From positions 1-64,000 of the forward strand of contig JADMJR010000214.1 in NCBI GenBank assembly GCA_018780365.1: a stretch of DNA of 64,000 nt, given 5' to 3'. Each line of letters starts with the position of its first letter. Position 1 is the first letter of the stretch. Source of the DNA: Acidovorax sp. Lineage in GTDB: Bacteria; Pseudomonadota; Gammaproteobacteria; Burkholderiales; Burkholderiaceae_C. Both the position numbers and the translations under genes were made by a program. Positions 2,823-60,745 of this stretch are shown one piece after another. The notes beneath the pieces are model-generated. The model was not told where the DNA came from. It worked only from the letters and a program-made list of their open reading frames with translations, and did not search any database.

Positions 2823-2875
2823 AGCCGGCAGCAGGGCCCTATTGTGGCCTGGGCGGCCACCGCACGCGCATCTCT

Positions 2876-2940
2876 ATACTATGAATTCAATAGCTGTTAG
2901 CGCTTAACCAGAAGGCGCAAGAGGCCATTTTGATGCGGAA
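2876..2940 (+). repeat. Interspersed ~60-bp repeat, copy 1
   Basis: ACTATGAATTCAATAGCTGTTAGCGCTTAACCAGAAGGCGCAAGAGGCCATTTTGATGCGGAAA. Confidence 0.75.
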
Positions 2941-2983
2941 ATTCCCGGCGCCAGCGACGGCCCGCGATCCCTGGCTCGACGCT

Positions 2984-7126: not shown

Positions 7127-7131
7127 GGGGT

Positions 7132-7196
7132 TATGAATAAAAAATGCCTCTAGCGCCTGATAGGCAAGCGCTGATAGCTATGAAATCAGGAGTAAT
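7132..7196 (-). repeat. Interspersed ~60-bp repeat, copy 2
   Basis: Reverse complement CATTACTCCTGATTTCATAGCTATCAGCGCTTGCCTATCAGGCGCTAGAGGCATTTTTTATTCATA. Confidence 0.8.
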
Positions 7197-7349
7197 GGGC
7201 GGCACACAGCGGGTGCAGCCCTGTGCACCCCTGCCTCAGCGTGTGCGCAACGGCACAGCACAGGCGCCTGCACGGGCCCGGCCCACACTGCAGGGCAATG
7301 CGGCGGTTGTGCAGAACAGAAGGCGAAGGTTCAGGGATGCCGTGGCGCG

Positions 7350-8874: not shown

Positions 8875-10110
8875 TCAGGGCTGGCCGAGCAGGTCCGCCA
8901 CGTCGGTGCGGTAGGCCTGCATGGCGGGCAGCAGTGCCGCCAGCGCCGCCACACCCGCTGCCAGCAGCGGTACACCCACCTCGGCGGGCAGCCAGATGAG
9001 GCCGGTCACGGGCAACAGCCCCTGCGCCTGCAGTGCCCAGCCCAGGCCATGCGCCAGGCCGTGGCCCAGCAGTAGCCCGAGGATGGACGCCAGCGCAGCC
9101 AGCCACAGAGCCTCCCACAGCACCAGCCCCGCCACGCGGCCGGGCGGCGCGCCCAGCATGCGCAGCATGGCCAGGTCGGCGCGGCGCTCGCGCACGGCGT
9201 TCCACAAGGCAATGAACACGCTGAGCGCGGCCACGGCCAGCAGCACGCCGCCGAAGGCGCGCAGCACATCGGCCCCCACGCCCAACAGGCGCAAGAGGCG
9301 TGTGACCTCGATGGCGGGTGCCGCCGCCTGCATGGCGGTGTCGGCGTTGATCTTGCGCGGCAGCGTGACGGCAGCCATGGGCGTGCGGTAGCGCACCAAT
9401 GCCACGGTCACTTCGCGCTCCTGTTTCATGATTTCCAGGTCCTCGGCATCGTTGGCCGTGGCGGTCTCGTGCACCATCCAGACGGATTCGGTGCTGGTCA
9501 GGATGAGCCGGTCAAGCACGCAGCCGCAGGGCGCGAGCACGCCGCTCACGCGGTAGGGGTGGTTGCCATGTGCGTGCCCTCCCCCGCCCAGCCCGTGGCT
9601 GCCGACAAAGGTGGCGCCCACCAGCGGCGCGCCTGCATGGCTGCTTTTGACAATGCCACGCGCCACACTGGCGCCCAGCACCGCATCCATGGGCTGCTGC
9701 CACAACGCGCCCTCGGCCAGCGTGGCCTCGTAATGCGCCACATAGTCGGGCGTGGTGCCGACGATGCGAAAGCCCTGGTAGCTGTCGCCCAGGCTCAGCG
9801 GGATGACCTGGGCCACCAGCGGGTTCTGCTGCAGCGCCTGCACTTCTTGCAGCGGGATGTTGCCGGTGGGCACGTCGATGTGGAACACGCCCGCCAGGAT
9901 CAGCTGCAGCGGGCTGCCCTTGGCACCCACCACCAGGTCGATGCCGTCCAGGTCGCGCTCAAAGGCCTTGTCGAGCTGCGTGGCCACCAGCAGCACCAGG
10001 GTGATGGCGGCCAGGCCCAGCGTGAGCACCAGCAGGTTGAGCACTGCCGCCAGCGGGCGGGACCACAGGTAGCGCCACGACAGGCGGGCCAGTTTTACTA
10101 TGTTTTTCAT
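8875..10110 (-). CDS. ABC transporter permease, FtsX/MacB type
   Basis: MKNIVKLARLSWRYLWSRPLAAVLNLLVLTLGLAAIT...; C-terminal FtsX-like MLRMLGAPPGRVAGLVLWEALWLAALASILGLLLG. Confidence 0.85.
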   Translation of the reverse strand: MKNIVKLARLSWRYLWSRPLAAVLNLLVLTLGLAAITLVLLVATQLDKAFERDLDGIDLVVGAKGSPLQLILAGVFHIDVPTGNIPLQEVQALQQNPLVAQVIPLSLGDSYQGFRIVGTTPDYVAHYEATLAEGALWQQPMDAVLGASVARGIVKSSHAGAPLVGATFVGSHGLGGGGHAHGNHPYRVSGVLAPCGCVLDRLILTSTESVWMVHETATANDAEDLEIMKQEREVTVALVRYRTPMAAVTLPRKINADTAMQAAAPAIEVTRLLRLLGVGADVLRAFGGVLLAVAALSVFIALWNAVRERRADLAMLRMLGAPPGRVAGLVLWEALWLAALASILGLLLGHGLAHGLGWALQAQGLLPVTGLIWLPAEVGVPLLAAGVAALAALLPAMQAYRTDVADLLGQP

Positions 10111-10160
10111 AGCTACTCGCGCCCTTCTGTTGCGCGGTAGGCCGCTATTTCATTCAAATC
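10094..10160 (+). repeat. Interspersed ~60-bp repeat, copy 3 (at ATPase/permease junction)
   Basis: TACTATGTTTTTCATAGCTACTCGCGCCCTTCTGTTGCGCGGTAGGCCGCTATTTCATTCAAATCC. Confidence 0.6.
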
Positions 10161-10790
10161 CAGCGTCTGCGCACCGGCCAGGGCCGACACCACACGCTGG
10201 TCGTGCGTGGCAATGATCAGGCTGGCATCGCAGGCGGCGGCGCTGCGCTGCAGCAGTGCCAGCGCATCCGCGGCAGCTTCGTCGTCCAGGCTGGCCGTGG
10301 GCTCGTCGGCCAGCAGCACCTGCGGCGCCAGCAGCACGGCCCGCGCCAGCGCCACACGCTGCGCCTGCCCGCCCGAAAGCTGGTGTGGCTTGCGCGTCGC
10401 CAGCTCGGCCACGCCCACCTGCGCCAGCGCACGCTGGATGGCCGCATCGTCGCGCGGCAGCCCGGCCGCAAAGTAGACCAGCGCCAGGTTGTCGGCCACC
10501 GAAAGCGCGCTGCTGAGGTACAGCTTCTGCGGCAGAAAACCAATGTTGCGCGCGCGCCAGGCATCGATCTCGGCCCCGCGCTGCGTGCCCAGCTGGGTGC
10601 CTGCCACAAACAGGTCGCCCCCGCTGGCACCGCGCAGCCCCGCCATCAGCGCCAGCCAGGTGGACTTGCCGGTGCCCGAGCGCCCGCGCAGCAGCAGCGT
10701 GCCCCCCTGGCGCAGGTCTACATCGGGGAAACGCAGCGGCGCGGCGCCGCCCGTGGCATAGGTGTATGAAAGGCCCCGGGTGCGGATCAT
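10113..10790 (-). CDS. ABC transporter ATP-binding protein (LolD/MacB-like)
   Basis: Walker A LRGRSGTGKSTWLALMAGL, signature LSGGQAQRVALARAVL, Walker B VLLADEPTASLD. Confidence 0.9.
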   Translation of the reverse strand: MIRTRGLSYTYATGGAAPLRFPDVDLRQGGTLLLRGRSGTGKSTWLALMAGLRGASGGDLFVAGTQLGTQRGAEIDAWRARNIGFLPQKLYLSSALSVADNLALVYFAAGLPRDDAAIQRALAQVGVAELATRKPHQLSGGQAQRVALARAVLLAPQVLLADEPTASLDDEAAADALALLQRSAAACDASLIIATHDQRVVSALAGAQTLDLNEIAAYRATEGRE

Positions 10791-11269
10791 GCGGCGGCAC
10801 CTTCGGCCGGGTGGGCGCACTCCGCACACCGCCCGTGCACGGCAATGTCCACCGCCAGGCGCTCGTGCCCGGCCGTGGCCAGTGCCTGCAGCATCTGCTT
10901 GAGGGCGCTCTGCACCTTGGCCGAGCCCTGCGACAGGCGGAACTGGCGGTGGCAGTCGTCGCATTCAAAGCGGGGGGCGGCGCCCTCTTCGCCCTGGGGC
11001 GCCCGTGCGTAACGGGTGACGCGGGCGGCATCGACCTGCTTGTGCAGCAGGCCGGCGGCAGCAAAACGGTCGAGCATGCGGTACACGGTGACCTTGTTGA
11101 CGGGGGCGCCAGCCATGGCGAGGGCGGCCTCGACTTCGGGTTCGGAGAGTGCTGCGTCGGGGCGCGCTTCATAGAGCGCCGCCAGCGCCCGGGTGGCACG
11201 GGTGGCGCGCATGCCGGGTGGAAGTGACCAAGGCGGGTGGTATGGGGACGAGGGGGCGGAGGTGGGCAT
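10787..11269 (-). CDS. zur: Fur-family regulator, probably Zur
   Basis: PVNKVTVYRMLDRFAAAGLLHKQV...FECDDCHRQFRLS...HGRCAECAHP; ATGA overlap with ABC ATPase. Confidence 0.8.
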   Translation of the reverse strand: MPTSAPSSPYHPPWSLPPGMRATRATRALAALYEARPDAALSEPEVEAALAMAGAPVNKVTVYRMLDRFAAAGLLHKQVDAARVTRYARAPQGEEGAAPRFECDDCHRQFRLSQGSAKVQSALKQMLQALATAGHERLAVDIAVHGRCAECAHPAEGAAA

Positions 11270-22800: not shown

Positions 22801-23056
22801 AGGACACCGCCTGAAACAGTTGTTTCATTCCATGGTAACGGCTGCAGCTTACTTTGTGCTTGGAACTTGGGTGAATCGTCGTTCGACCGCTCTGCCGCGC
22901 ATCCGCCGACCCGCTCTTACCGCTGCAGGCACGGCGCCAGTCCCTGGAGGATGCGGTCGTTGCCGCTCATGCCATGATCAGGCGTCTGACACAATATGAC
23001 GCACATTGCAGCTCCTAACTCACGCGCATTGTCATTCTTATCGCAAGGAACGTCCC

Positions 23057-25627
23057 ATGGTTTTTGGCTGGAAACAGTTCACACAGTTGGCCCTGCTGGG
23101 CTGCCTCTTCGTTCTCAGCGCCTGCGGCGGGGGCGGCTCCGCTGAACTGCAGTTGAATCTCCCGCTGCAAGGGGCAAGCGTTCAAATCACCCACGATGCC
23201 CAAGACGCTACGCGGCCGGCGCAGATCATGGCGACATACAGCGCTCGCGTCATCAACGTTGCAACGGATTTCCTCGTGGTAGGCGGCACTTGCACCCAGG
23301 CGCCTGCTCCTGTCATCTCCGTCGATACTGCGCGCATGCTGGTCACGGTGCGCTTGAGCGGCGGCAACTGCGAGGGCGGCCAGACGCTTACGCTCACGGT
23401 GGACCCCGCCAAAGTCACGCTCGAGAACGCGACGCTGGCCAACACGGCGATCTGGACGCGCAGCTTCGCCATCTCGCCCACGAGCCAGAAGATCAGTGGC
23501 TCTATCAGTTGGTTGGCCGGCACCGTGGTGCTCAGGATCAACGGCGGAGAGACGGTGACGGTTGCGAGCGACGGTTCTTTCGCGTTCCCCACACCGGTCA
23601 GAGCAGGTAGCTTCTATACCGTGACCGTGGATACCCAGCCGGTCGGCCAAACTTGCTCGGTGAGCAACGGCAGCGGCGTGGTGGGCACAAGCCCTGTGGA
23701 AAAGTTGATCGTCATGTGCTCCACGGATGCGTACCAGGTCGGGGGCACGGTCGCCGGACTGACCGGCACTTTGGAACTGGTCAACAACGGTGCTGACTTG
23801 TTGGCAATCAACGCCAATGGACGCTTTATCTTCCCTGTTCCCGTGGCCTACGGCGCCGGGTATGCCGTCACCGTCCGCACCCAGCCAATTGGCCAGACCT
23901 GCTCGGTCAGCCGTGGTACCGGGGCCATGGGAGGCCCCGTGAGCGACGTGGCCGTGGTGTGCGCAACCAACGCCTACAAAGTGGGGGGCACGGCTTCTGG
24001 TCTTGTGGGCACCCTGGAGCTGCTCAACAACGGCGTTGATTTGTGGGCAATCACTGCCAACGGCTCTTTCGCATTCCCCACCTCTGTGGCATTCGGCTCT
24101 CCGTACAATGTCACGATCAAGACCCAGCCTCTGAACCAGACCTGTACCGTGGCCAACGGCAGCGGAACGATGGGCGGCGCCAACGTCACCAATGTCACGC
24201 TGGTATGTGCAACGTCCATCTTTTCAGCAGGCAACACCTACAACGGAGCCTCGGGGGCCGGTGATGTGTTCACAGGCCCCATCGCCGGCCTGAACGGATC
24301 GACCTTCAATGGCAATGCGGCCGACACCGACGCGATGACCTTCACCACGGCCGGAAGCGTGAACCTCAACAATGGCACGACCGGCGGCACGCTCTCGAAC
24401 ATCAAAGTGCTGAATCTTGCCAATGGCTCCAATACCATCACGTTTGCCAACGCAACTTCAGGCGTCACCACAGTCGTTGGTGGCACCGGTAACGACGTGG
24501 TCGACCTTGCCAACACAGGCAACACGTTTCTGGCCGGCACAGTCAACCTGGGCACGGGCAGCAACAGCCTGACACTGGAAAACAAGACCTACACGGGCAG
24601 CTACACGTCGGGCTCTGGTGGCAATGACACGCTGTATCTGTTCAACGGCACCAATATCGCCGGAGCAAGCGTGTCGGGCTTCGAGAACCTCGTGGTTGCC
24701 AGCAACGCGACGGTCACTATGGCACCAGGCCAGTCCTCGCAGTTCATAGGCACAATCACCGCCGCAGGCACGGAAACCATCAACCTGGCATCCTCAGGCA
24801 CCTTCAACGCGCTGCCAAATATCGAGAACTACAACCTGGCCAACGGAACGAACAACTTCAGCTCGGCCAATGTGCCCGTGACGGTGGTGGGCGGTTCGGG
24901 CGTTGACGTGTTTAATTTCACAGCAAACCAGATCATCAACTTCCTGACCTCGATTGATGGTGGCGGCGGCGGCACCAACATACTGAACATTGGCGCGACC
25001 GCGACACAGTCGATAGACCTCAGCACCAAGGTCATCAGCAACATACAGATCGTCAATGTTGCGGGCAGCGTCGGAACGGCGAGTTTTACCAACATCAATG
25101 GTGCTGGTGCAACCCTGACCTACACCAAGTCCACAGGCGATAACACCATCAATTTGGGGTCAGGCGGTCAGACACTGAATTTGCTTGGCTCTAGCTCCAC
25201 AAGCACGACCGTCACAGGTAGCCCTGCCGCTGACACCATCAACCTTCCGTTCAGTGGCAGTGGCTCAGAAACCCTGATCGAGACGGGAGCGAACATGTCA
25301 AACCGCACCCAAATAGACACAGTGGGGAATTTCAACGCCACGGGCACCGACTATTTCAAGACCGGAGTGAACGCAACGTCCGTGGGAAGCTTCATCATTG
25401 GCAATGCAGACACCGGCAATTATCTGACCACCATTGGCGCCGGGCTGGCGGTCGTGCTGAACAATACCGGGCAGGCTTACCTCATCACCATCCAGACGGG
25501 CACGGCGGCCGGCACCTACTTGTTCCAGAACACAGGCAGCAACACCGCCCAATTCGACAATACGGATTTCTTTGTGCAACTGACCGGCACCATAGGAACG
25601 ATATCCACCGGTAATTTGATTCAATAG
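23057..25627 (+). CDS. Repeat-containing surface lipoprotein/adhesin-like protein
   Basis: Lipobox LFVLSACGGGG; three ~80-aa tandem domains ending in CSVSNGSG..CSTDAYQ/CSVSRGTG..CATNAYK/CTVANGSG..CATS; Gly/Asn/Thr-rich C-terminal region. Confidence 0.7.
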   Translation: MVFGWKQFTQLALLGCLFVLSACGGGGSAELQLNLPLQGASVQITHDAQDATRPAQIMATYSARVINVATDFLVVGGTCTQAPAPVISVDTARMLVTVRLSGGNCEGGQTLTLTVDPAKVTLENATLANTAIWTRSFAISPTSQKISGSISWLAGTVVLRINGGETVTVASDGSFAFPTPVRAGSFYTVTVDTQPVGQTCSVSNGSGVVGTSPVEKLIVMCSTDAYQVGGTVAGLTGTLELVNNGADLLAINANGRFIFPVPVAYGAGYAVTVRTQPIGQTCSVSRGTGAMGGPVSDVAVVCATNAYKVGGTASGLVGTLELLNNGVDLWAITANGSFAFPTSVAFGSPYNVTIKTQPLNQTCTVANGSGTMGGANVTNVTLVCATSIFSAGNTYNGASGAGDVFTGPIAGLNGSTFNGNAADTDAMTFTTAGSVNLNNGTTGGTLSNIKVLNLANGSNTITFANATSGVTTVVGGTGNDVVDLANTGNTFLAGTVNLGTGSNSLTLENKTYTGSYTSGSGGNDTLYLFNGTNIAGASVSGFENLVVASNATVTMAPGQSSQFIGTITAAGTETINLASSGTFNALPNIENYNLANGTNNFSSANVPVTVVGGSGVDVFNFTANQIINFLTSIDGGGGGTNILNIGATATQSIDLSTKVISNIQIVNVAGSVGTASFTNINGAGATLTYTKSTGDNTINLGSGGQTLNLLGSSSTSTTVTGSPAADTINLPFSGSGSETLIETGANMSNRTQIDTVGNFNATGTDYFKTGVNATSVGSFIIGNADTGNYLTTIGAGLAVVLNNTGQAYLITIQTGTAAGTYLFQNTGSNTAQFDNTDFFVQLTGTIGTISTGNLIQ

Positions 25628-25786: not shown

Positions 25787-27142
25787 TCAATGATCGGCTT
25801 GCACCATGCCCAGAATGGCCTGCGCCGTGGCCTGTGCCGCACCGCGGTGGGCGGTGGCAAAGCCGGTGGCGCGCTCGCTGGCGGCGTTTTGTGCGCTGGC
25901 GTCCTGTGCCAGGGTGGCCGCCAGTGCCATGCCAGCAGCCATGTCGGGCACACGCTGCGCCGCGCCCGCTGCGCAGGCCAACTCTGCGGCCTCGGCAAAA
26001 TTGAAGGTGTGGGGCCCCAGCACCACGGGGCAGCCGCAGGCGGCGGCCTCGATGAGGTTCTGGCCGCCCAGCGGGGCAAAGCTGCCGCCCAGCATGGCCA
26101 CATGGGCCAGGCCGTAGTACAGCGCCATTTCCCCCAGCGAGTCGCCCAGCCACACATCGGCCGGTGTGGGGCCTGCGGCCCAGGTGCTGCGGCGCGACAC
26201 ACTCAGGCCCGCGCGCAGCAGCAACTGGTGCACCTCGTCAAAACGCTGCGGGTGGCGCGGCACGATGAGCCATTGCACGCCACAGGTCGCAGGGTCGATT
26301 GCTCTGTTTTTGATAGCTGATTGCGCTTGCTGGTCGCGCGCCAGGGCCATTTTTGACTTCAAATTTTCCAGCCACAGGGTTTCTTCGCCCTCGCGGCTGC
26401 TGGCCAGCATGACCACTGGGCGGCCAGCGTCCCTGCGCCAGAGGCGGCCCCGCTCCAGCAACGGTGCATCGGGCACCACGTCGAACTTCAGGTTGCCGAA
26501 CACACCATGCACCGGGGCCCCGATGGTGCGCAGGCGCCGGGCATCGTCCCTGGTCTGGGCCCACACGGCCGCCAGGCCGCCGTAGGCTGGCCGTGCCAGC
26601 GCCGACAGGCGCTGCGCCTTGTGCAAGGATTTTTCATTGAAGCGCGCATTGGCCAGCACCAGCGGAATGCCCCGCTGCCGGCAGCCTGCCACCAGGTTGG
26701 GCCACACCTCTGTCTCCATCAGGACGCCGATGGCCGGGCGGAACTTGCGCAGAAAGCGGGCCACGGCGCCGGGCGTGTCCCAGGGCTGCCACACCTGCAC
26801 GTCGCCGGGCAGCAGCAGCTTTTCGCCCTCGGCCCGGCCCGTGGCGGTGCCGTGCGTGAGCAACAGGCGCATGCCCGGCAGTTGCTCGCGCAGTTGCGCC
26901 AGCAGGATGGCGGCCGCCCGTGTTTCGCCCAGCGAGACGGCATGCACCCACACAAACCGGCCCAGCGGGTCGGAGCTGCTGTGGGGCATCAGGCTGTCGA
27001 TGGGCGCAGGGTAGCGGCCAAAACGTTCGCCCACGGCCAGCCCGTAGCCAGGCTCCGCCACGGCCCGGCGGCGCAGCTTGCGGCGCAGCAGCGGCTGAGC
27101 GCCCCAGGTGATCAGCGAATACAGGGCACGTGCGGCGTTCAT
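25787..27142 (-). CDS. waaA: 3-deoxy-D-manno-octulosonic acid (Kdo) transferase, with repeat-derived internal insertion
   Basis: MNAARALYSLITWGAQPLLRRKL...VHAVSLGETRAAAILLAQL...WLIVPRHPQRFDEV...WLGDSLGEMALYYGLAHVAMLGGSFAPLGGQNLIEAAACG. Confidence 0.93.
   Translation of the reverse strand: MNAARALYSLITWGAQPLLRRKLRRRAVAEPGYGLAVGERFGRYPAPIDSLMPHSSSDPLGRFVWVHAVSLGETRAAAILLAQLREQLPGMRLLLTHGTATGRAEGEKLLLPGDVQVWQPWDTPGAVARFLRKFRPAIGVLMETEVWPNLVAGCRQRGIPLVLANARFNEKSLHKAQRLSALARPAYGGLAAVWAQTRDDARRLRTIGAPVHGVFGNLKFDVVPDAPLLERGRLWRRDAGRPVVMLASSREGEETLWLENLKSKMALARDQQAQSAIKNRAIDPATCGVQWLIVPRHPQRFDEVHQLLLRAGLSVSRRSTWAAGPTPADVWLGDSLGEMALYYGLAHVAMLGGSFAPLGGQNLIEAAACGCPVVLGPHTFNFAEAAELACAAGAAQRVPDMAAGMALAATLAQDASAQNAASERATGFATAHRGAAQATAQAILGMVQADH
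26302..26368 (+). repeat. Interspersed ~60-bp repeat, copy 4, inside waaA
   Basis: CTCTGTTTTTGATAGCTGATTGCGCTTGCTGGTCGCGCGCCAGGGCCATTTTTGACTTCAAATTTT. Confidence 0.75.
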
Positions 27143-29378: not shown

Positions 29379-29506
29379 GTCGAAGGACCTTTAGCGAGGG
29401 GGTTGAAGAGCCGGCTGCATTGTAGGCGGCCCCCCTGCCCGGCCAGGCGTCCGGGCCGCCGCAGGCATATGTCCGAAAACGGCCAGTGCGGGCGCACCCC
29501 ATCCCT

Positions 29507-31090
29507 ATGATCCAGCCCATGACTTCACCCACCACGACCGGCACAGCCACCACCGACACCGCCTCGGACGAGGGCCGCTACCTGGCCGTGCTGGCCCGGG
29601 ATGCGCGTTTTGACGGGCACTTTTTTACCGGCGTGACCTCTACCGGCATCTATTGCCGCCCCGTGTGTGCCGTGCGCACCCCCCGGCGCGAGAACTGCCG
29701 CTTCTTTGTGCTGGCCGCACAGGCGGAGAACGCCGGTTTCCGGCCCTGCCTGCGCTGCCGGCCCGAGCTGGCACCCCAGGCGCTGGTGTGGTCGGTGCAG
29801 GACGCGAGCAGCATCCTGGTGCAACAGGCCGTGCGCCTGCTGGATGCGCCCGACCTCTGGCCGGCCCCATCCACACACAAAACCACACCACCAGCCACAC
29901 CCGGCGACAGCAGCGCCACCGTGGCCCGCCTGGCCGAGCGCCTGGGCGTGAGCGACCGCCACCTGCGGCGCATTTTTGAGGCCGCACTGGGCGTATCGCC
30001 CCTGCAATACCTGCAGACACGCCGCCTGCTCACGGCCAAACAGTTGCTCACCGACACCACCATGCCCGTCACGCAGGTGGCGCTGGCCAGCGGCTTTGCG
30101 AGCGTGCGCCGCTTCAATGCCGCCTTTGCGGGGCACTATGGCCTGAACCCCACCCAGTTGCGCCGCAGCGGCGCAGCCCCCGCCAAAACAGGCGCTCCGG
30201 GTGCGGGCGGCACGCTGCGGCTGGCCTGGCGCCCACCGTTTGATGTGGCCGCACTGCTGGCGTTTTTTGAGCGGCGGCAGTTCCATGGAGTGGAATGGGT
30301 GCTGCCACATGAGGCCACGCTGCGGCGCACCGTGCGCCTGCCCGCCAGCACCACAGGCCTGGGCCAGGAAACCACCGGCTGGTTCAGCGCGCGTTTTGAC
30401 GTGGCCCGCCACCAGGTGCTGCTGCAGACCAGCGACAGCCTGTACCCGGTGCTGCCGCTGGTGATCCGCCGCGTGCGCGCCATGCTCGACCTGGACGCCG
30501 ACCCCGCCGCCATCAACGCCGTGCTGCACCCCCATTTCCCCGACGGCGACGGCCTGCGCGTGCCCGGGGCGTTCGATGGCTTTGAGCTGGCCGTGCGCGC
30601 CGTGCTGGGCCAGCAGATCACCGTGGCCGCCGCGCGCACCCTGGGCCAGCGGCTGGTGGAGCGGCTGGGCGAGCCCATCGAAACGCCCTGGCCCGAACTG
30701 AGCCGCTTGTTCCCCACCGCCGCCACGCTGGCCGTGGCCGACGGCGACACCCTGGGCCAGCTGGGCATCGTGCGCCAGCGCCAGGCCGCCATCGTGGCGC
30801 TGGCCCGCGCCGTGGACAGCGGTGCCCTGGCCCTGCATGCCGGGGCTGACGTGGCCAGCACCACGGCCGCGTTGTGCGCGCTGCCCGGCATTGGCGACTG
30901 GACGGCCCAGTACATCGCCATGCGCGTGCTGCGCTGGCCCGACGCGTTCCCGGCCGGCGACGTGGCCTTGCACAAGGCTCTGGGCGTGTTGGCCGAAAAA
31001 AGCCCGGCCCGCGCGGCCACCGCAGCATCCGAGGCCTGGCGCCCCTGGCGCAGCTACGCCGTGCTGCGCGCCTGGGCCGGCCTATCATGA
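29507..31090 (+). CDS. alkA: Ada-like/AraC/AlkA fusion, DNA-3-methyladenine glycosylase
   Basis: Ada zinc domain TGVTSTGIYCRPVCAVRTPRRENCRFF; AraC HTH; AlkA HhH LCALPGIGDWTAQYIAMRVLRWPDAFPAGDVAL. Confidence 0.92.
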   Translation: MIQPMTSPTTTGTATTDTASDEGRYLAVLARDARFDGHFFTGVTSTGIYCRPVCAVRTPRRENCRFFVLAAQAENAGFRPCLRCRPELAPQALVWSVQDASSILVQQAVRLLDAPDLWPAPSTHKTTPPATPGDSSATVARLAERLGVSDRHLRRIFEAALGVSPLQYLQTRRLLTAKQLLTDTTMPVTQVALASGFASVRRFNAAFAGHYGLNPTQLRRSGAAPAKTGAPGAGGTLRLAWRPPFDVAALLAFFERRQFHGVEWVLPHEATLRRTVRLPASTTGLGQETTGWFSARFDVARHQVLLQTSDSLYPVLPLVIRRVRAMLDLDADPAAINAVLHPHFPDGDGLRVPGAFDGFELAVRAVLGQQITVAAARTLGQRLVERLGEPIETPWPELSRLFPTAATLAVADGDTLGQLGIVRQRQAAIVALARAVDSGALALHAGADVASTTAALCALPGIGDWTAQYIAMRVLRWPDAFPAGDVALHKALGVLAEKSPARAATAASEAWRPWRSYAVLRAWAGLS

Positions 31091-31157
31091 ATGCTATTGA
31101 ATATATAGCTATCAATGCTTACCCAAAGCGCGCAGAAGCCTGTTTTCATCCCTAAAT
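31090..31157 (+). repeat. Interspersed ~60-bp repeat, copy 5
   Basis: GCTATTGAATATATAGCTATCAATGCTTACCCAAAGCGCGCAGAAGCCTGTTTTCATCCCTAAA. Confidence 0.8.
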
Positions 31158-31171
31158 CACAGAGACTCCCC

Positions 31172-31723
31172 ATGCAATACCACCCCCACACCGTGCAGGC
31201 CCGCGCCAGCACCGCCCTTGGACCGGTGCGCCTGGCGGCCTCGCCCAAGGGCCTTTGCGGCGTCTGGTTCGAAGGCCAGCGCCACGAACCCAGCCGCCTG
31301 CTGCACGGCAATAGCGCCTGGGCCGAGGCCGCAGACCACGCGCTGCTGCAACAGGCCACCCACCAGTTGCAGCAGTACCTGCGGGGTGAACGGGATGGGT
31401 TTGACCTGCCCCTGGACCTCTCGGGCGGCACGCCGTTCCAGCAAGAGGTGTGGCACGCGCTGCTGGCCATTGGCCGGGGCGGCACCTGCACCTATGGCCA
31501 CCTCAGCGAACAGCTGGGCCGGCCCCGCGCGGTGCGGGCCGTGGGCGCGGCCGTGGGGCGCAACCCGCTGAGCGTGGTGGTGCCCTGCCACCGCGTGCTG
31601 GGTGCGGACGGCAGCCTGACCGGCTACGCGGGCGGGCTGGATCGCAAGGCCGCGCTGCTGACGCTGGAGAATGCCCCCTCGCAACACGCGCGCTCCCCCG
31701 CTCCCCAGAAAGGCCATGCATGA
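31172..31723 (+). CDS. ogt: Methylated-DNA-[protein]-cysteine S-methyltransferase
   Basis: GTPFQQEVWHALLAIGRGGTCTYGHLSEQLGRPRAVRAVGAAVGRNPLSVVVPCHRVLGADGSLTGYAGG. Confidence 0.95.
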   Translation: MQYHPHTVQARASTALGPVRLAASPKGLCGVWFEGQRHEPSRLLHGNSAWAEAADHALLQQATHQLQQYLRGERDGFDLPLDLSGGTPFQQEVWHALLAIGRGGTCTYGHLSEQLGRPRAVRAVGAAVGRNPLSVVVPCHRVLGADGSLTGYAGGLDRKAALLTLENAPSQHARSPAPQKGHA

Positions 31724-32824: not shown

Positions 32825-35800
32825 ATGGCCCATAACGCGCTGCTGGCAGGCGGACTGCTGATCTTGCTCGTGCTGGTGCTGGCCCACCTGCAGCCGGCCG
32901 AAATCCTGCGCCCTTCGCGCCGCACGCAGGTGCTGACCGGGATCGCGGGCGGCGTGGTGTCGGCCCTGGTGCTGGTGGTGTTGCGCATGAATGCGCCCGA
33001 ACTGGGGGTGGTGGCCTACCCCACGGCCACCGCCTTCATGGGCCTGTACTTCGGGCCGCTGTCGGCGTTGATCACCGCCGCCTTGGCCTTGCTGGCCTTG
33101 GTCTGGAGCGACGACGCAGCGTGGTTGGCCGCCCTGGCCGTGCTGGTGGGGGCTGGCGCACTGGGCGCGCTGTGGCGCAAGGTCGACACCCGCCCCGGCG
33201 CCAATCCCTGGATGGGCATGGCGGGCATGGCCCTCACGCTGCCGCCGGTGGTCACGCTGTGCCTGATGGCCGGTGGCGCCATGCCAGTTTCGGACTCGGC
33301 CCTGGAATGGCTGCAGCAGCTGCCCTGGTACCACGGCGCCGGCATTCTGATCCTGGGCACGGGGCGGCAGTTGCTGGTGGGCAAGGCGCAATCGGTGGTA
33401 GCGCTGGAACACGCCCACCACCGGCTGGAAGAACGCGAGCAGCAACTGCGCCTGGCGCTGGACTCACTGGGCGGCGGGCGCTGGGAATGGGATGTGGCAA
33501 CCCGCCAATTCCGCTGCGACGGCGCCTTTTACGAGGCCTACGGGATCACCCACGCCGATGCAGGCAACCCGGACCTGTGGGCGCGCTGGTATGCCCGGCG
33601 CCACCCTCTGGACGCCGAGCGCAACGCCGCGCGGCTGGCGCGTGCCATGGACGGGCTGGAGGAAAGCTACGAGGCCGAGTTCCGGGTGGTGGACCTGGCG
33701 GGCCGCTGGCGCTGGCTGATGTCGCGTGGCACGGTAGCGCGGCGCGACGCCCAGGGCCGGCCGGTCAGCATGATCGGCATGGATGTGGACATCACCGCCC
33801 ACCGCGAGGTAGAGGATGCGCTGCGCTCCTCCGAAGCCAAATACACCACCTTCTACCAGACACTGCCCGACCCGGCCGGCATCTCGCGCATCTCGGACGG
33901 CCGCTATGTGGACGTGAACCCGGCCTTTTGCGAGGTGCTGGGCCGCCCACGCGAGGAAGTGATCGGGCGCACCTCCACCGAGCTGCAGATCTGGGCCAGC
34001 GAACAAGAGCGCGCACGCCTGCTCGACACCTTCCGGCGCGAAGGCAAGGTGGACCGCCTGCCCCTGGTGGCCCAGAGCAACGGCGTGCGCATTCCGGGCC
34101 TGATGTCGGCACGCTCCGTGCTTGTGGATGGCGAGAACTGCTTTGTTTTCGTTTTCCACGACATGACCGAAGCCCAACGCACCAGCGACGAACTTCGGGC
34201 GCTCTACAACCAGCTGCAGCAAGCCGGCCGCCTGGCGCGCCTGGGCGCCTGGGAGGACGAGCGTGGCAAGGGCCTGGTGTACTGGTCGGAGATGTGTTTT
34301 GACATCCACGGCCTGGACCCCAGCCAGCCGCCGCCCAGCGACTACATCGACCGCCATGTGGCCCCCGCCTACCGCGAGCCGCTGCGCGAAAAATTCCGCC
34401 AGAGCCTGCGCTCGCGCACCGCGTGGAGCATGGAGCTGGAGGTCATCCACGCCGATGGCCACCTGCTGTGGGTGCGCGCGCGCGGCGAGCCCGTGATCGA
34501 GAACGGCCGCGTTGCGCGCGTGCGCGGCGTGATGCAGGACATCGACGAAGCCAAACGCGCCGAGCAGCGCCTGCGCCAGTCGGAGGAGCGCTTTTCGCGC
34601 ATTTTCCAGCTCATGCCCTACCCCATGGGCCTGTCGCGCCGCAGCGACGGCCGCTATGTAGACATCAACCCCGCCTGGGTAGAGATGCTCGGCATCCCGC
34701 GCAACCAGGCCATTGGCCACACAGGCATCGAACTGGGCATCTTCACCGCTGAAGACCGCCAGCGGCTCATCGCGCAGGCAGAGCTGACCGGCCAGGTCAG
34801 CGACCACGAAATGACCCTGGCCGTGCGCGGCGGCCCGCCCCGCACGGTGCTGCAGTCCATGCGGGCCACCGAGTTTGATGGGGAACCCTGCTGGCTGTTC
34901 TCGGTGCACGACATCACCAACCGCAAGCGCGAAGAAGAACAGGTACGCGAACGGGAGGAACTGCTCTCGCTCACCATCTCGGCCGCTTCGCTGGGGCTGT
35001 GGGACTGGAACCTGCAGACCGGCGTTGTCACCGGCGACGGCCGCTGGCGCGCCATGCGGGGCCTGGAATCCCCAGGCAGCGCACCGGTGTCTGCACAGTG
35101 GGCCACCGCCATTGCGCCCGACGACATCGACCGCATTACCGCCGAACTGGCGCGCCACACCACCAACCCCGGCACACCGTTTGATGCCACCTGGCGCGTG
35201 ACCCCGACCGGCGACGCCGCGCGCTGGGTGCGCAACCTGGGCAAGATCGTGGGCTTTGACGAGGCGGGCCGCCCCGCCCGCATGCTGGGCGTGGCCATCG
35301 ACGTGACCCCCCAGCGCGAACAAGAGGTCATGCTGCAGCGGCTGGCGCTGTTTGACGCCCTCACCGGCCTGCCCAACCGCGTGCTGCTGGCCCGCAAGCT
35401 GCAAGAGAGCATGGGCAAGGCCCGCGACAACGGCACACAACTGGGCGTTGCGTACCTGGACCTGGACGGCTTCAAACCCGTGAACGACCGCCTGGGCCAT
35501 GGCGCGGGCGACCGCCTGCTGGTGATGGTGGCTGGCCGCCTTACCCGCGCACTGCGGCCCAGCGACTGTGTGGCCCGCCTGGGTGGCGACGAGTTTGTGA
35601 TCCTCATGCCCGGGCTGGAGTCCGTCAGCGACTGCGAACACCTGCTTGAACGCGTGATGGAAAGCGTCTCGGCCCCCTACACGCTGGACGCCGAACGCGT
35701 GGTGGTCACGGCCAGCATTGGCTACACCGTGTTCCCGCAGGACGATGCCGATGCCGACACCCTGCTGCGCCACGCCGACCAGGCCATGTACGCCGCCAAG

Positions 35801-36661
35801 CAGGCCGGGCGCAACCGTTTTCACCAGTTCGACGCGGCCCAGGAGCGCGCCGTGCAACTGCGGCGCGCCCAGGGCCGCCACCTGCGCGACGCGCTGGCAG
35901 ACGCCCAGTTCACCCTGTACCTGCAACCCAAGGTGGACATGCGCAGCGGCACCGTGGTGGGCGCCGAAGTGCTCTCGCGCTGGCAACACCCCGAGCGCGG
36001 CCTGGTACCGCCCGGCGAGTTCCTGCCGCTGCTGCAGGGCACCGAGCTGGAGATCGGCTTTGGCGAATGGGTGGCCGAGGCCGCACTCACGGTGCTGGAG
36101 CAGTTGCAGGACCGGGGCCTGCCCATGCCGCTGAGCATCAACATCGCCGCCCAGCACCTGCAGCAGCCCGGTTTTGCCCGCTGGATGGCCCAATGCCTGG
36201 CGCGCCACCCCAAGGTGCCCACCCACTTGGTCGAAATCGAGATCACCGAAAGCGCTGCGCTTTATGACCTGTCGGCCGTGGCGGTCACCCTCACCGAGCT
36301 GCGCGCCATGGGCGTGACCGTGTCGCTGGACGACTTTGGCACCGGCTATTCATCGCTGACCTACCTGCGCCGCCTGCCCATGGACACGCTCAAGATCGAC
36401 CAGAGTTTTGTGCACGGCATGATGGGCGACCCCGGCGACCTGGCCATCGTGCAGGGCGTGATCGGCCTGGCCCGCTCCTTCGGCTACCGCGTGATCGCCG
36501 AGGGCGTGGAAACCATCGAACAAGGCCAGATGCTGCTGCAACTGGGCTGCACCCAAGCCCAGGGTTACTGCATTGCCCGGCCCATGCCGTTGGACGATTT
36601 CATCGACTGGACACCGGGGTGGCAGCCGCCGGCGGGGTGGCAGCGGCAGCGGCCGGTGTGA
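32825..36661 (+). CDS. Large multi-PAS GGDEF-EAL protein
   Basis: N-term TM region, several PAS domains, RLGGDEFVILMPG, EVLSRWQHPERG, DDFGTGYSSLTYLRRLPMDTLKIDQSFV, AEGVET. Confidence 0.93.
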   Translation: MAHNALLAGGLLILLVLVLAHLQPAEILRPSRRTQVLTGIAGGVVSALVLVVLRMNAPELGVVAYPTATAFMGLYFGPLSALITAALALLALVWSDDAAWLAALAVLVGAGALGALWRKVDTRPGANPWMGMAGMALTLPPVVTLCLMAGGAMPVSDSALEWLQQLPWYHGAGILILGTGRQLLVGKAQSVVALEHAHHRLEEREQQLRLALDSLGGGRWEWDVATRQFRCDGAFYEAYGITHADAGNPDLWARWYARRHPLDAERNAARLARAMDGLEESYEAEFRVVDLAGRWRWLMSRGTVARRDAQGRPVSMIGMDVDITAHREVEDALRSSEAKYTTFYQTLPDPAGISRISDGRYVDVNPAFCEVLGRPREEVIGRTSTELQIWASEQERARLLDTFRREGKVDRLPLVAQSNGVRIPGLMSARSVLVDGENCFVFVFHDMTEAQRTSDELRALYNQLQQAGRLARLGAWEDERGKGLVYWSEMCFDIHGLDPSQPPPSDYIDRHVAPAYREPLREKFRQSLRSRTAWSMELEVIHADGHLLWVRARGEPVIENGRVARVRGVMQDIDEAKRAEQRLRQSEERFSRIFQLMPYPMGLSRRSDGRYVDINPAWVEMLGIPRNQAIGHTGIELGIFTAEDRQRLIAQAELTGQVSDHEMTLAVRGGPPRTVLQSMRATEFDGEPCWLFSVHDITNRKREEEQVREREELLSLTISAASLGLWDWNLQTGVVTGDGRWRAMRGLESPGSAPVSAQWATAIAPDDIDRITAELARHTTNPGTPFDATWRVTPTGDAARWVRNLGKIVGFDEAGRPARMLGVAIDVTPQREQEVMLQRLALFDALTGLPNRVLLARKLQESMGKARDNGTQLGVAYLDLDGFKPVNDRLGHGAGDRLLVMVAGRLTRALRPSDCVARLGGDEFVILMPGLESVSDCEHLLERVMESVSAPYTLDAERVVVTASIGYTVFPQDDADADTLLRHADQAMYAAKQAGRNRFHQFDAAQERAVQLRRAQGRHLRDALADAQFTLYLQPKVDMRSGTVVGAEVLSRWQHPERGLVPPGEFLPLLQGTELEIGFGEWVAEAALTVLEQLQDRGLPMPLSINIAAQHLQQPGFARWMAQCLARHPKVPTHLVEIEITESAALYDLSAVAVTLTELRAMGVTVSLDDFGTGYSSLTYLRRLPMDTLKIDQSFVHGMMGDPGDLAIVQGVIGLARSFGYRVIAEGVETIEQGQMLLQLGCTQAQGYCIARPMPLDDFIDWTPGWQPPAGWQRQRPV

Positions 36662-36667
36662 AATGAA

Positions 36668-36728
36668 GGATAAAAATGGCTGCCAGTTATTCTTCTGAAT
36701 GCACTGATAGCTATTATTTTGATAGCTT
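36668..36728 (-). repeat. Interspersed ~60-bp repeat, copy 6
   Basis: Reverse complement GCTATCAAAATAATAGCTATCAGTGCATTCAGAAGAATAACTGGCAGCCATTTTTATCC. Confidence 0.75.
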
Positions 36729-36795
36729 TTTATGGCCAGCCATGTACCTCCATGAAGCAAGCCAATGGGCTGGCTTCCATTTTTAATGGGCCCAT

Positions 36796-42791: not shown

Positions 42792-42863
42792 ATCGAAGGC
42801 GGCGACGAACCGTGCCGCCGGTGGGGTTTCAGCGGCGCGCCTCTCCACCGTCTCTGGGTTGAT

Positions 42864-42932
42864 TTGCTATTATTTCAATAGCTTTCAGCGCTTTATGGAC
42901 GGGCGAAGAAGGCCAAAAAGACCCAAATTTTT
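42864..42932 (+). repeat. Interspersed ~60-bp repeat, copy 7 (between convergent genes)
   Basis: GCTATTATTTCAATAGCTTTCAGCGCTTTATGGACGGGCGAAGAAGGCCAAAAAGACCCAAATTTT. Confidence 0.75.
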
Positions 42933-43536
42933 ACTTGATCAGCCCCAGCACATCCTTGAACGCCGGGTGCTCGCAGCTGCCCAGCCACTCAAACGCCACC
43001 ATCTCAGTGGTCACCAGCTCGGCGCCCGCGCCGGCCAGGCGGTCAAAGGCGGCGTCGCGGTTGCGTTCGGTGCGCGAGCCGCAGGCATCGGTCACCACCC
43101 ACACTTCGAACTCGTCTTCCAGCAGGTCCAGCGCAGTCTGCAGCAGGCAGACATGGGCTTCGCAACCGGCAATCACAATGGTGCCGCGCTCGTCACCCTG
43201 GGCAGCGGCGGGCTTTTGCAGGTGTTTGGGCAGGCTGCGCGCGTTGCCGCCCTGGGGCTTGGCGGGGGGGCGCAGCCATTCGCCCAGGCCTTCCTCGGCG
43301 GCGCTGAAGTGCATCTTGGCCAGGGTTTTCTGGCACAGGGCGCGCAGCGCGGGGTCGTTGGCACCCAGTCGCGAGGGGTTTTGCTCGGTGCCCCACACGG
43401 GCACATCCAGCATGCGGGCGATCTCGGCCAGGCGGCGTGCGTTGGCCAGCACGGCGGGGCCTTCAAAGATGGCGGGCATCAGGCGCTCCTGGTAGTCAAC
43501 CAGAACGAGTTGGGATTCGGTGGCGTCAAGCAGCAT
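42931..43536 (-). CDS. Isochorismatase-family hydrolase
   Basis: MLLDATESQLVLVDYQERLMPAI...IVIAGCEAHVCLLQTALDLLEDEFEVWVVTDACGSRTERNRDAAFDRL. Confidence 0.9.
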   Translation of the reverse strand: MLLDATESQLVLVDYQERLMPAIFEGPAVLANARRLAEIARMLDVPVWGTEQNPSRLGANDPALRALCQKTLAKMHFSAAEEGLGEWLRPPAKPQGGNARSLPKHLQKPAAAQGDERGTIVIAGCEAHVCLLQTALDLLEDEFEVWVVTDACGSRTERNRDAAFDRLAGAGAELVTTEMVAFEWLGSCEHPAFKDVLGLIK

Positions 43537-43739: not shown

Positions 43740-44891
43740 TCATTCCGGCTGCAGGCGCAGCAGCCGCCCCTGGGGGCTGTCGGTCAGCACATAGAGCAGG
43801 CCATCCGGCCCCTGGCGCACATCGCGGATGCGTTCGCCGTTGCCTTGCAGCAGCTTTTCTTCGCGCAACACCTTGCCGCCCGCCACTTCCAGGCGGTGCA
43901 GGGTGCCAAATTTGAGCGATCCGACAAACAGACTGCCCTGCCACGCCGTGCCGTAGCGCGTGCTGGTCAAAAAGGCTATGCCCGAGGGCGCAATGGATGG
44001 CACCCAGTAGTGCAGCGGCGGCTCCATGCCCGCCTTGGCCGTGCCTTCGCCGATCTTGCCGCCGCCGTAGTTCTCGCCAAAGGTGACCACCGGCCAGCCA
44101 TAGTTGCGGCCTGGCTGGGGCAGGTTGATCTCGTCGCCCCCTTGTGGGCCGTGTTCGTGCATCCACAGCTTGCCGTCGGGCCCCAGCGTGGCGCCCTGGG
44201 GGTTGCGGTGGCCGTAGCTCCAGATCTCGGGCAAGGCGCCGGGCTGGTTGGCAAAGGGGTTGCCGGGTGGCAAGGCGCCGTCGGGGGTGATGCGGATGAC
44301 CTTGCCGTGGTGGTTGTCGAGTTTTTGCGCGTCGTCCTTGCGGTGGTAGCGCTCGCCCAAGGCCACCAACAGGTTGCCGTCCGGCGCCTGCACGATGCGG
44401 CAGCCAAAATGCAGCGCACTTTCGACCTTGGGCCGCTGGCTGAAGACCACGCGCACGTCCTGCAGGCTGCGCGCATCGGCCGCCAGGGTGGCGCGCGCCA
44501 CGGCCGTGCTGTTGCCCGGCCCACGGGCTGCGGGTTCGGAAAAGCAAAAGTAAATGCGGCGGTTGCGCCCAAAGTCGGCGTCCGTCACCACATCCAGCAG
44601 CCCGCCCTGCCCGCCCGCAGCCACCGGGGGCACGCCGGCCAGGGCGGGGCCCAGCTGGCCACTGGCACTGACAACGCGCAGGTGGCCCGCCCGTTCGGTG
44701 ACCAGAAACTGCCCCTGCGGCAAAAAAGCCAGGCCCCACGGATGGAGCAGCCCCGTCGCCACCGGTACGAGAGACACAGAGGGGGCCGCGTTCTGGGCCA
44801 CACCCGCACCACAGAAACCAAGAACTATCAAAACGATAGCTGCTTGCGCTTGATGGACGGGCGCTGGCAGCCATTTTTTCATCGAAACCAT
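43740..44891 (-). CDS. PQQ-dependent aldose sugar dehydrogenase (YliI/Asd family)
   Basis: LLHPWGLAFLPQGQFLVTERAGHLRVV...WSYGHRNPQGATLGPDGKLWMHEHGPQGGDEINLPQPGRNYGWPVV. Confidence 0.92.
   Translation of the reverse strand: MVSMKKWLPAPVHQAQAAIVLIVLGFCGAGVAQNAAPSVSLVPVATGLLHPWGLAFLPQGQFLVTERAGHLRVVSASGQLGPALAGVPPVAAGGQGGLLDVVTDADFGRNRRIYFCFSEPAARGPGNSTAVARATLAADARSLQDVRVVFSQRPKVESALHFGCRIVQAPDGNLLVALGERYHRKDDAQKLDNHHGKVIRITPDGALPPGNPFANQPGALPEIWSYGHRNPQGATLGPDGKLWMHEHGPQGGDEINLPQPGRNYGWPVVTFGENYGGGKIGEGTAKAGMEPPLHYWVPSIAPSGIAFLTSTRYGTAWQGSLFVGSLKFGTLHRLEVAGGKVLREEKLLQGNGERIRDVRQGPDGLLYVLTDSPQGRLLRLQPE
44824..44882 (+). repeat. Interspersed ~60-bp repeat, copy 8, overlapping a signal-peptide coding region
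   Basis: ACTATCAAAACGATAGCTGCTTGCGCTTGATGGACGGGCGCTGGCAGCCATTTTTTCATC. Confidence 0.8.
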
Positions 44892-57847: not shown

Positions 57848-60685
57848 ATGCCTGCCGCTGGCCACGACCCTGCCCACCCCGCGCCCCCTGATCAGCCCCG
57901 GTCGAACCGGAGCGCCCTGATCGCCGCCTGGGCCCAGGCCCTGCGCCAGCGCGCCGATGCGGCCACGCTGCAGGCGTTGGCACCGCTGACCGACGCCGAG
58001 GCCGCACAGGTGATGGCGCTGCTGCGCGACGGCGCCGCACCAGCCCCTTCTGGGGCCCCTACCGCTTCGTCGGCGCCAGCCGCCGCTGCATCCGGTGTGG
58101 TCGCAGGCCAGTTCCGCCCCCGCATCACCCTCATGACCCTGGGCCGGGGCGACGGCCTGCTGGGCATGGCGCCCCAAGGCAAGCTGGGGCCACGCGGCGA
58201 CAACGTGACCCTGGCACAGATCGACTGGACCTACCGCACCGACACCGGCGCCCAGTGGGAGACTGCCGCGCCCACCTCGGTGCTCAACGCCCGCCCCGCG
58301 CCCGTGCAAGACCTGTACGACACCGGCGGCCCCGTGCTGCGCATGCAGCGCCACCTGGCCGCCGAGGCCGACGCCACGGACCGCGTGTGGGACCTGGGCC
58401 TGACCCCCGTGGACCCCAAAAGCCTGCAGTGGCGCCACCGCGCGGCCGCCGCCACGCTGGGCCCCGTGTGGACCCTGGCGCAGGAGGCGCACTTTGGCGA
58501 CTTCTGGGCCGACGTGGTTCCGCAGCTGCGCGCCGAGGGCTGGAGCGTGGTGGTACACCCCGGCTTTGCGCACGAAAGCGTGCCCGTGTCGCGCTGGAAG
58601 CTCGTCATCGCCCCCGACACCGGCGAGCTGCTGGCCAAGGAAGTCGATGGCCCGCTGGGCACACGCCAGCGCCCCGTGCAGAAGCTGCACCTGCCCGAAC
58701 GCGAAGGCGCCTGGCTGCTCAGCCTGGGCATCGAGATCGACGGCGAGGTGTTGGACCTGGCCCCCATGCTGGCCGACCTGCTGCGCCGCGACATGCGCTG
58801 GCTCAACGCGCGGCAGATGGCGGCCATCGACGACATCGCCGTCATTTCGCTGCGCGCTCCTGGCGGGCGGCGCATCGACGCACCCGCAGGACCGCTCAAG
58901 GCCATCGTGGGCGCCATGGTGGACCTGCTCACCGACCCCTCCCGCAAACAGCTGAAGGACGGCGACCCGCTGCGCCTGGGCGCCTGGGAGGTCCGCCGCA
59001 TCGAGGCCCTGCGTGCCGGGCTGGTGCAAGCCCACCGCGTGGGCACCGTCAGCGGCTGGAGCAACGACTGGCAGCTGCAGGGCGACGTGGGCCTGGCACA
59101 GCTCGCCCAGCGCCTGCGCCGCATCGGCACCCCGCAGCCCGTGCCCGCACCCCAAGGCCTGCAGGTGCAGCTGCGCCCCTACCAGCTCGACGGCCTGGCC
59201 TGGCTGCAGTACCTGCGCGCCCAGGGCCTGGGCGGCATCCTGGCCGACGACATGGGCCTGGGCAAAACCGCGCAGGCGCTGGCCCATGTGCTGGTGGAGA
59301 AACAAGCGGGCCGCCTCACCCGCCCGGCCCTGGTGGTGCTGCCCACGTCGCTGCTCTTCAACTGGCAGGCCGAGGCCGCGCGCATGGCGCCGGGCCTGCG
59401 CGTGCTGGCCCTGCACGGCGCTAGCCGGGGCCAGCGCTACCTGCAGGTCGCCGACCACGACCTGGTGCTGACCACCTACCCGCTGCTCTGGCGTGACGTG
59501 GATGCGTTGGCGGCAGAGCCTTTTCACCTGCTGATCCTGGACGAAGCCCAGATGGTGAAAAACGCAGGCAGCCGCAGCGCCCGCGCCCTGCGCAAACTGC
59601 AGGCCCCGCACCTGCTGTGCCTGACGGGCACGCCGCTCGAAAACCACCTGGGCGAGCTGTGGGCGCAGTTCGACTTCTTGATGCCCGGCTTTCTGGGCGA
59701 TGTGCGCAGCTTCAACGCGCGCTGGCGCAAGCCCATCGAAGAGAACGGTGAAACCCTGCGCGCCCAGCTGCTGGCCCAGCGCGTGCGCCCCTTCATCCTG
59801 CGCCGCCGCAAGCAGGACGTGGCCACCGAACTACCGCCGCGCACCGAAACCATCTTGCGCGTGCAGCTGCAGGGCAAGCAGCGCGAGCTGTACGAGGCCG
59901 TGCGCACCACGGCCGACAAGCAGGTGCGCCGAGCGCTGGAGCGCCAGAGCTTTGATGGCGCGCAGATCACCATCCTGGATGCACTGCTCAAGCTGCGCCA
60001 GGTGTGCTGCGATCCGCGCCTGGTCAAAGGCGCGAAGATCCACCCCGGCACCGAACGCGCCAAGCTCGACCTGCTGGCTGACATGCTGCCCGCCCTGGTC
60101 GAAGAAGGCCGCCGCGTGCTGGTGTTCTCTCAGTTCACCGAGATGCTGATGCTGGCCGCCGAACAACTGGACGCGCTGGCCCTGCCCTACCTCACCCTCA
60201 CCGGCCAGACGCCACCGGGCCAGCGCGGCGCCATGGTTCAACGTTTTCAGGCGCAGGACGCCACCAGCGCGCCCATCCTGCTGGTCAGCCTCAAGGCGGG
60301 CGGCACGGGTCTGAACCTGACGGCCGCCGACACCGTGATCCACCTCGACCCCTGGTGGAACCCTGCCGTGGAGGAGCAGGCCACCGCCCGTGCCCACCGC
60401 ATCGGGCAGGACCAGCCGGTGTTCGTCTACAAGCTGGTGGTCGAGGGCAGCATCGAGGAGCGCATGCTGGAGCTGCAGGCGCGCAAGGCCGCGCTGGCCA
60501 GCGGCGTGCTGGGCCACGACGCGGCCGGTGCGCTGAAGTTCAGCGAGGCCGACCTCACGGCCCTGCTCGCGCCACTGGCCGAGCCCGCCGACAACCCGCT
60601 GGCCATCCCGGGCGAGGATGCGCGGCGCTGGGGTGGCACCGGCCAGCGCCGCCCGCGCCCGCTGCAGCCGCCAGAATATGAATAA
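57848..60685 (+). CDS. SNF2-family DEAD/DEAH helicase
   Basis: ILADDMGLGKTAQALAHVL, LILDEAQMVKN, LTGTPLENHLGELWAQFDFLMPGFLG, VSLKAGGTGLNLTAADTVIHLDPWWNPAVEEQATARAHRIGQ. Confidence 0.95.
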   Translation: MPAAGHDPAHPAPPDQPRSNRSALIAAWAQALRQRADAATLQALAPLTDAEAAQVMALLRDGAAPAPSGAPTASSAPAAAASGVVAGQFRPRITLMTLGRGDGLLGMAPQGKLGPRGDNVTLAQIDWTYRTDTGAQWETAAPTSVLNARPAPVQDLYDTGGPVLRMQRHLAAEADATDRVWDLGLTPVDPKSLQWRHRAAAATLGPVWTLAQEAHFGDFWADVVPQLRAEGWSVVVHPGFAHESVPVSRWKLVIAPDTGELLAKEVDGPLGTRQRPVQKLHLPEREGAWLLSLGIEIDGEVLDLAPMLADLLRRDMRWLNARQMAAIDDIAVISLRAPGGRRIDAPAGPLKAIVGAMVDLLTDPSRKQLKDGDPLRLGAWEVRRIEALRAGLVQAHRVGTVSGWSNDWQLQGDVGLAQLAQRLRRIGTPQPVPAPQGLQVQLRPYQLDGLAWLQYLRAQGLGGILADDMGLGKTAQALAHVLVEKQAGRLTRPALVVLPTSLLFNWQAEAARMAPGLRVLALHGASRGQRYLQVADHDLVLTTYPLLWRDVDALAAEPFHLLILDEAQMVKNAGSRSARALRKLQAPHLLCLTGTPLENHLGELWAQFDFLMPGFLGDVRSFNARWRKPIEENGETLRAQLLAQRVRPFILRRRKQDVATELPPRTETILRVQLQGKQRELYEAVRTTADKQVRRALERQSFDGAQITILDALLKLRQVCCDPRLVKGAKIHPGTERAKLDLLADMLPALVEEGRRVLVFSQFTEMLMLAAEQLDALALPYLTLTGQTPPGQRGAMVQRFQAQDATSAPILLVSLKAGGTGLNLTAADTVIHLDPWWNPAVEEQATARAHRIGQDQPVFVYKLVVEGSIEERMLELQARKAALASGVLGHDAAGALKFSEADLTALLAPLAEPADNPLAIPGEDARRWGGTGQRRPRPLQPPEYE

Positions 60686-60745
60686 AAATGGCCTCTACCG
60701 CCTGATAGACATGCCTTTATAGCTATCAAAACAATAGTATTTGAT
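60675..60745 (-). repeat. Interspersed ~60-bp repeat, copy 9 (touches helicase stop codon)
   Basis: Reverse complement ATCAAATACTATTGTTTTGATAGCTATAAAGGCATGTCTATCAGGCGGTAGAGGCCATTTTTATTCATATTC. Confidence 0.8.

Follow-up and report, generated by a model that had tools for sequence, protein, structure and literature searches.

The Rickettsia palindromic elements (RPEs; Ogata 2000, 2002, reviewed in PMC10969869) are repeats of ~150 bp from an obligate intracellular alphaproteobacterium. They are singled out in that 2024 review as unusually frequent in-frame fusions, and an RPE-like process in other prokaryotes is described there only as "conceivable". REPs of the GTAG and CGTC superfamilies lie mostly by the 3' ends of genes, in convergent or codirectional settings, and intragenic REPs have been listed in other bacteria, including cases in dnaE2 and RNA helicase genes (PMC3733652, 2013). 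The BRE repeat, present in Bordetella, is ~90 bp long with 69% GC and has 13 copies in Delftia acidovorans and 1-4 in Acidovorax (PMC3110155).

Here we describe a repeat from Acidovorax sp., found in a stretch of 64,000 nt (contig JADMJR010000214.1, assembly GCA_018780365.1) that is referred to below as the window. Like RPEs, it is a short palindromic repeat that lies in frame in several unrelated conserved genes and adds a peptide to their products. Unlike RPEs, its unit is ~70 nt and three of its reading frames are used. As far as tested, the repeat appears to work like an RPE while forming a separate family, set apart by the published descriptions of RPEs. With REPs it shares a palindromic form, high copy number, a setting at gene 3' ends and an occasional position inside ORFs, but its unit is longer. 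The GTAG tetranucleotide was not conserved at either end of the consensus (50 copies). CGTC-type REPs have a CGTC end tag, an 8-9 bp stem and a loop of 4-5 nt, whereas this repeat has a loop of ~11 nt and carries CCGTCC in that loop, not at an end. By tag, by stem and loop, or by the presence of a RAYT, we do not class it as a GTAG or a CGTC REP, and the text of PMC3733652 makes no mention of Acidovorax, Delftia, Polaromonas or Burkholderiales. BRE is likewise a dispersed betaproteobacterial repeat that has been reported in Comamonadaceae, with some copies in coding sequences (PMC3110155). The two differ in length (~70 nt here), in GC content (~40% here) and in distribution, BRE being compared by description only: the present repeat numbers at least 150 in this Acidovorax genome, and a search of a Delftia tsuruhatensis genome gave no copy at E<1e-9. 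A known RNA family was ruled out, as Rfam gave no match above the gathering score in the window and only chance-level matches near the element. None of the open-licence papers searched describes the repeat.

The waaA gene and its repeat copy

The ORF at 25787-27142 (-) was identified as waaA from Pfam (PF04413, E=1.3e-58), NCBIfam (PRK05749) and sequence matches to PDB entries 4bfc and 2xci. Its product contains both the Glycos_transf_N domain and the WaaA fold, and 2xci was also the best Foldseek match of the structural model (TM 0.71 by target length). Nine repeat copies were scored in the window at E 2e-12 or better with covariance model R1, which was built from these same nine copies. Features of the window are as follows.

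25787..27142 (-): waaA (kdtA), lipid IVA Kdo transferase, 451 aa, split in frame by the repeat (PF04413, PRK05749, 4bfc/2xci)
26297..26368 (-): repeat copy in waaA, translated NLKSKMALARDQQAQSAIKNRAID, WaaA residues ~259-282 (R1 65.9 bits; independent profile 60.9 bits)
2874..2944 (-): intergenic repeat copy (R1 72.5 bits)
7127..7197 (+): intergenic repeat copy (R1 73.2 bits)
10093..10163 (-): repeat copy across the junction of co-directional ORFs 10113-10964 and 8875-10110 (R1 55.6 bits)
31089..31159 (-): repeat copy where ORF 29486-31090 (+) ends and ORF 31115-31723 (+) begins (R1 64.8 bits)
36660..36730 (+): repeat copy where ORF 32825-36661 (+) ends (R1 61 bits)
42862..42932 (-): intergenic repeat copy between ORFs 41991-42848 and 42931-43665 (R1 64 bits)
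44820..44890 (-): repeat copy near an ORF end (R1 63.1 bits)
60672..60742 (+): repeat copy within which ORF 57848-60685 (+) ends (R1 73.5 bits)

For an independent score, an nhmmer profile was made from 95 non-waaA copies of the same genome, leaving out those in-gene copies that were already recognized at that stage. This profile scored waaA at the insert only (60.9 bits), whereas the maximum among codon-shuffled waaA controls was 7.1 bits (n=1000). The GC content of the insert is 0.48, compared with 0.70 for the gene. A genuine waaA, a gene of the essential type, is thus read in frame through a complete copy of the dispersed repeat, as the initial annotation had proposed. The location given there (26302-26368) stood, although the element is slightly wider, and the distance of ~39 residues noted there between the EGEE and VPRHP motifs was counted as exactly 39. 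Its figure of ~18 extra residues was close to the ~20-21 that other families of the order lack (see below). Beside waaA, the ORF at 23006-25627 (+) (873 aa) contains three direct repeats ~245 nt apart (23633, 23879 and 24122); its product is repetitive and probably a secreted or surface protein.

The repeat family and its other sites

The unit is palindromic with a GC content of 0.40, and copies from the same genome gave the consensus AAATTTTGAATAAAAATGGCCGCTAGCGCCCGTCCATCAAGCGCTAATAGCTATNAAATTAATAGCAATC. In this genome, a draft assembly of 4.6 Mb in 370 contigs that is ~85% complete, at least 150 copies were found with the covariance model, every one at E<3e-7; extrapolating the density in the window gives an estimate of several hundred. 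Alignment columns 17-30 pair with columns 42-55 as the arms of an imperfect hairpin. Using hand-defined arms on a trimmed alignment, 74% of the cells in the 13-pair arms were paired, versus 23-51% when the partners were slid. Changes on both sides of a pair were seen in 21 cells, versus 14.2 in shuffles (6 of 500 were as high), and the covariation score was matched by 7 of 500 shuffles. An alternative pairing of GCTAT (51-55) with ATAGC (63-67) is possible in 95% of the cells and hardly varies. On the wide alignment of 107 columns, RNAalifold returned almost no structure. Of 50 copies, 27 have CCA in the loop and 13 have TGG, never both together, with the arms unchanged, as if the loop sits in both orientations. 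A longer reversed loop motif occurred at the shuffled level (5 of 50 copies; shuffles reach 6), and loop inversion is only hinted at.

Pairwise identity among 50 aligned copies averages 63% and never exceeds 82%, and the family therefore looks old. A recent burst was rejected, there being no near-identical pair among these copies. Target-site duplications were not found in the flanks of the loci; for empty-site comparison, intergenic regions were too diverged. Mobilization by a RAYT was also rejected, since the Y1 transposase (PF01797) had no match in the assembly at its ~85% completeness.

The majority of copies lie close to gene 3' ends. Based on gene calls from a home-made coding score, 49 copies have codirectional flanking genes, 30 convergent and 5 divergent, and the median distance to a gene 3' end is 6 nt. 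For the intergenic copies, this setting suggests either a role, or tolerance, at the ends of transcripts. Four window copies (10093-10163, 31089-31159, 36660-36730 and 60672-60742) overlap ORF ends. With stops in two of its frames, the element's 5' end (TTTGAATAA) apparently provides the stop codon of the neighboring gene.

In-frame copies were found in at least 12 genes of this genome, waaA included, a minimum count that comes from sampled loci. The other hosts encode HrpA, PurL, MoeA, a DnaE2-type error-prone polymerase, ComEC, an FAD oxidoreductase, GluQRS, Lpd (in the lipoyl-Lpd linker), MacB, the TIGR00275 FAD enzyme and the formate dehydrogenase alpha subunit. Identities are from NCBIfam except for the FAD oxidoreductase, which had no NCBIfam match and was named from sequence motifs. 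WaaA, HrpA, GluQRS, Lpd and the FAD oxidoreductase share the reading frame KxKxPLAxDGxAQAAIxSxA. PurL, MoeA, MacB and the TIGR00275 enzyme use another, KMASSAxPSSANSYQNxS, and the DnaE2-type polymerase, ComEC and formate dehydrogenase use an antisense frame. Three of six frames are thus used, and on each strand one frame is closed in all of 50 copies. Long spanning ORFs at three further loci (L142, L218 and L169) are probably spurious and were disregarded. The gene for the FAD-dependent oxidoreductase (contig C50 of this genome, 20759-24829) has two in-frame copies, at 1107-1168 and 1992-2077 of the locus (L171), in different reading frames. With a single family in frame in this many genes, the likeness to RPEs drawn by the initial annotation is borne out, and waaA becomes one of about a dozen such genes, which goes beyond what that annotation saw.

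The insert in related genomes and in the protein

A profile of intergenic copies recognized 76 of 110 WaaA segments, each above all 2200 codon-shuffled controls; note that the 110 loci include some genomes reached twice. Among segments above 5 bits (n=74), the insert is on the same strand in 74, in the same frame in 72 and at an identical offset in 64, with a shift of three codons in 7 more. Shared strand, frame and offset are what one ancestral insertion predicts. The insert is present in most Comamonadaceae sampled. In several other families of the order, WaaA alignments break at query positions ~261-290, where the gap holds just 12-27 nt versus 24-30 residues in the query, so that ~20-21 WaaA residues are lacking there. 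The repeat itself was absent at E<1e-9 from genomes of six other families of the order that were searched. The search in more distant taxa, which the initial annotation had named as the way to refute its reading, therefore came out in favor of that reading. Within the genus, the insert occupies a constant position in PurL, MoeA and HrpA orthologues, with some exceptions, and orthologues from other families are without it.

The presence or absence of the insert among Comamonadaceae, the comparison that had been recommended at the outset, tracks the repeat family. Copies were found in 10 of 11 genomes with a recognizable WaaA insert versus 4 of 19 with a short WaaA (Fisher p=0.0004, ignoring the relatedness of genomes), and in 3 of 9 genomes with a long but unrecognizable segment. 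In two Variovorax and at one further locus (L067), an insert-sized peptide is kept where repeats were undetected; we read these peptides as relics. In a WaaA tree made with the insert columns removed, insert-bearing rows fall in both main halves of Comamonadaceae, and short WaaA proteins are scattered (Delftia, Comamonas, Ramlibacter, Paracidovorax cattleyae and an A. soli clade). No fewer than 13 changes are required to explain this pattern, which implies frequent loss. One Acidovorax soli-like genome (G005) is without the WaaA, PurL and MoeA inserts (loci L244, L273 and L027) and has two repeats only at E<1e-9, a parallel loss from genes and genome.

Two side observations concern waaA in relatives. 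In the MAG Acidovorax sp. WOFB25 (L056:1-1425), 87 residues separate EGEE from VPRHP, and the insert seems to hold a second in-frame insertion with inverted GTTCGGGCTGAGCCTGTCGAAG / CTTCGACAGGCTCAGGGCGAAC arms. This second insertion is different-looking and inverted-repeat-like, and a loop of 87 residues indicates that the site is permissive. In Rhodoferax, short repeat-like matches (L103:967-1010 and L107:650-695) lie in an apparently conserved stretch beside waaA and are possibly another in-gene copy.

AlphaFold models place a helix at 253-275 of the window WaaA, followed by residues 276-289 at pLDDT ~48-57 and a strand from 290. In the insert-less A. soli WaaA, the helix spans 253-266 and is followed by a short turn and a strand from 276, at higher confidence; the remaining structural elements correspond between the two models. 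As modeled, the insert makes the helix longer and contributes a disordered loop that avoids the invariant motifs, in agreement with the surface loop that the initial annotation had proposed to look for. Values of dN/dS for the insert and for the rest of the gene were 0.73 and 0.24 (WaaA), 0.31 and 0.09 (PurL), 0.57 and 0.17 (MoeA), and 0.61 and 0.13 (HrpA), making those of the inserts ~3-5 times those of their flanks. Synonymous change was not reduced in the inserts, and there is thus no sign of constraint at the DNA level. The picture is one of inserts under relaxed constraint, a tolerated and drifting loop.

Origin and meaning of the insert

We consider it very probable that the WaaA insert goes back to a single early insertion from a high-copy, REP/RPE-like family of Comamonadaceae, and that it was then vertically inherited, weakly constrained and lost repeatedly. 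Copies of the repeat would have settled mostly beside gene 3' ends. A minority would have landed in genes, in a stop-free frame and at sites tolerating an extra loop, and stayed there as in-frame peptides. In waaA, one insertion early in Comamonadaceae, placed downstream of the helix that follows EGEE and ahead of the strand that leads to VPRHP, would have given ~20 residues that form a longer helix and a disordered surface loop. The insert would later have passed vertically, drifting under weak constraint and disappearing from several lineages. We infer past mobility of the repeat, with movement into genes and not out of them, as well as translation of the peptide, to which we ascribe no independent function. 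Against this simple history, no copy was caught moving, and neither a target-site duplication nor, in the ~85% complete assembly, a Y1 transposase was found; the tree also requires more changes than a simple gain with few losses.

The same excess of changes favors a hot spot in waaA that received independent insertions recurrently, as does the second repeat-like insertion in the WOFB25 loop. Independent insertions should vary, however, and the uniform strand, frame and offset argue against repeated gain, which leaves this explanation improbable. That the ~20 residues are ordinary WaaA sequence, matching the repeat by chance or low complexity, would fit the differing loop lengths at this site among species. 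It has virtually no likelihood, given a profile score that no codon-shuffled control approached and by which a chance match was excluded, the local drop in GC content, and the same peptide motifs in unrelated enzymes.

Domestication, in which the inserted peptide gained a function in WaaA (for example, contact with the membrane or a partner) and was kept by selection, has several points in its favor. The insert is found in most Comamonadaceae sampled, its residues A-I-N/K-S are widely kept, dN/dS of the inserts is below 1 (just 0.31 in PurL), and an insert-sized peptide persists in a few genomes where repeats were undetected. Nonetheless, the WaaA insert has a dN/dS well above that of the remaining gene, several lineages have lost it, among them an Acidovorax soli clade, the AlphaFold model shows it as disordered, and its length varies, up to the 87 residues of WOFB25 after a second in-frame repeat. 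We therefore regard a domesticated peptide as unlikely. The initial annotation had called the insert a "domesticated selfish" repeat; "domesticated" is unsupported in view of its relaxed constraint and several losses, and "selfish" finds no backing in an assembly where neither a transposase nor recent copies were detected.

We can tentatively imagine a palindromic repeat without a Y1 transposase that spread in a Comamonadaceae ancestor and entered at least a dozen conserved genes in frame. Genes and intergenic regions alike would have been purged of it in some lineages, such as the Acidovorax soli-like genome, and a loop that is maybe present in both orientations would hint at a hairpin intermediate.

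Rickettsia provides the best-known in-frame palindromic inserts, and here they occur in the mostly environmental Comamonadaceae. Members of the genus have them in common at constant positions, within enzymes that serve LPS, purine, molybdopterin, tRNA and DNA metabolism, and some relatives have lost them. Relatives with and without an insert are ready-made pairs for testing whether such peptides matter, and a route of repeats into proteins is thereby opened to comparative study.
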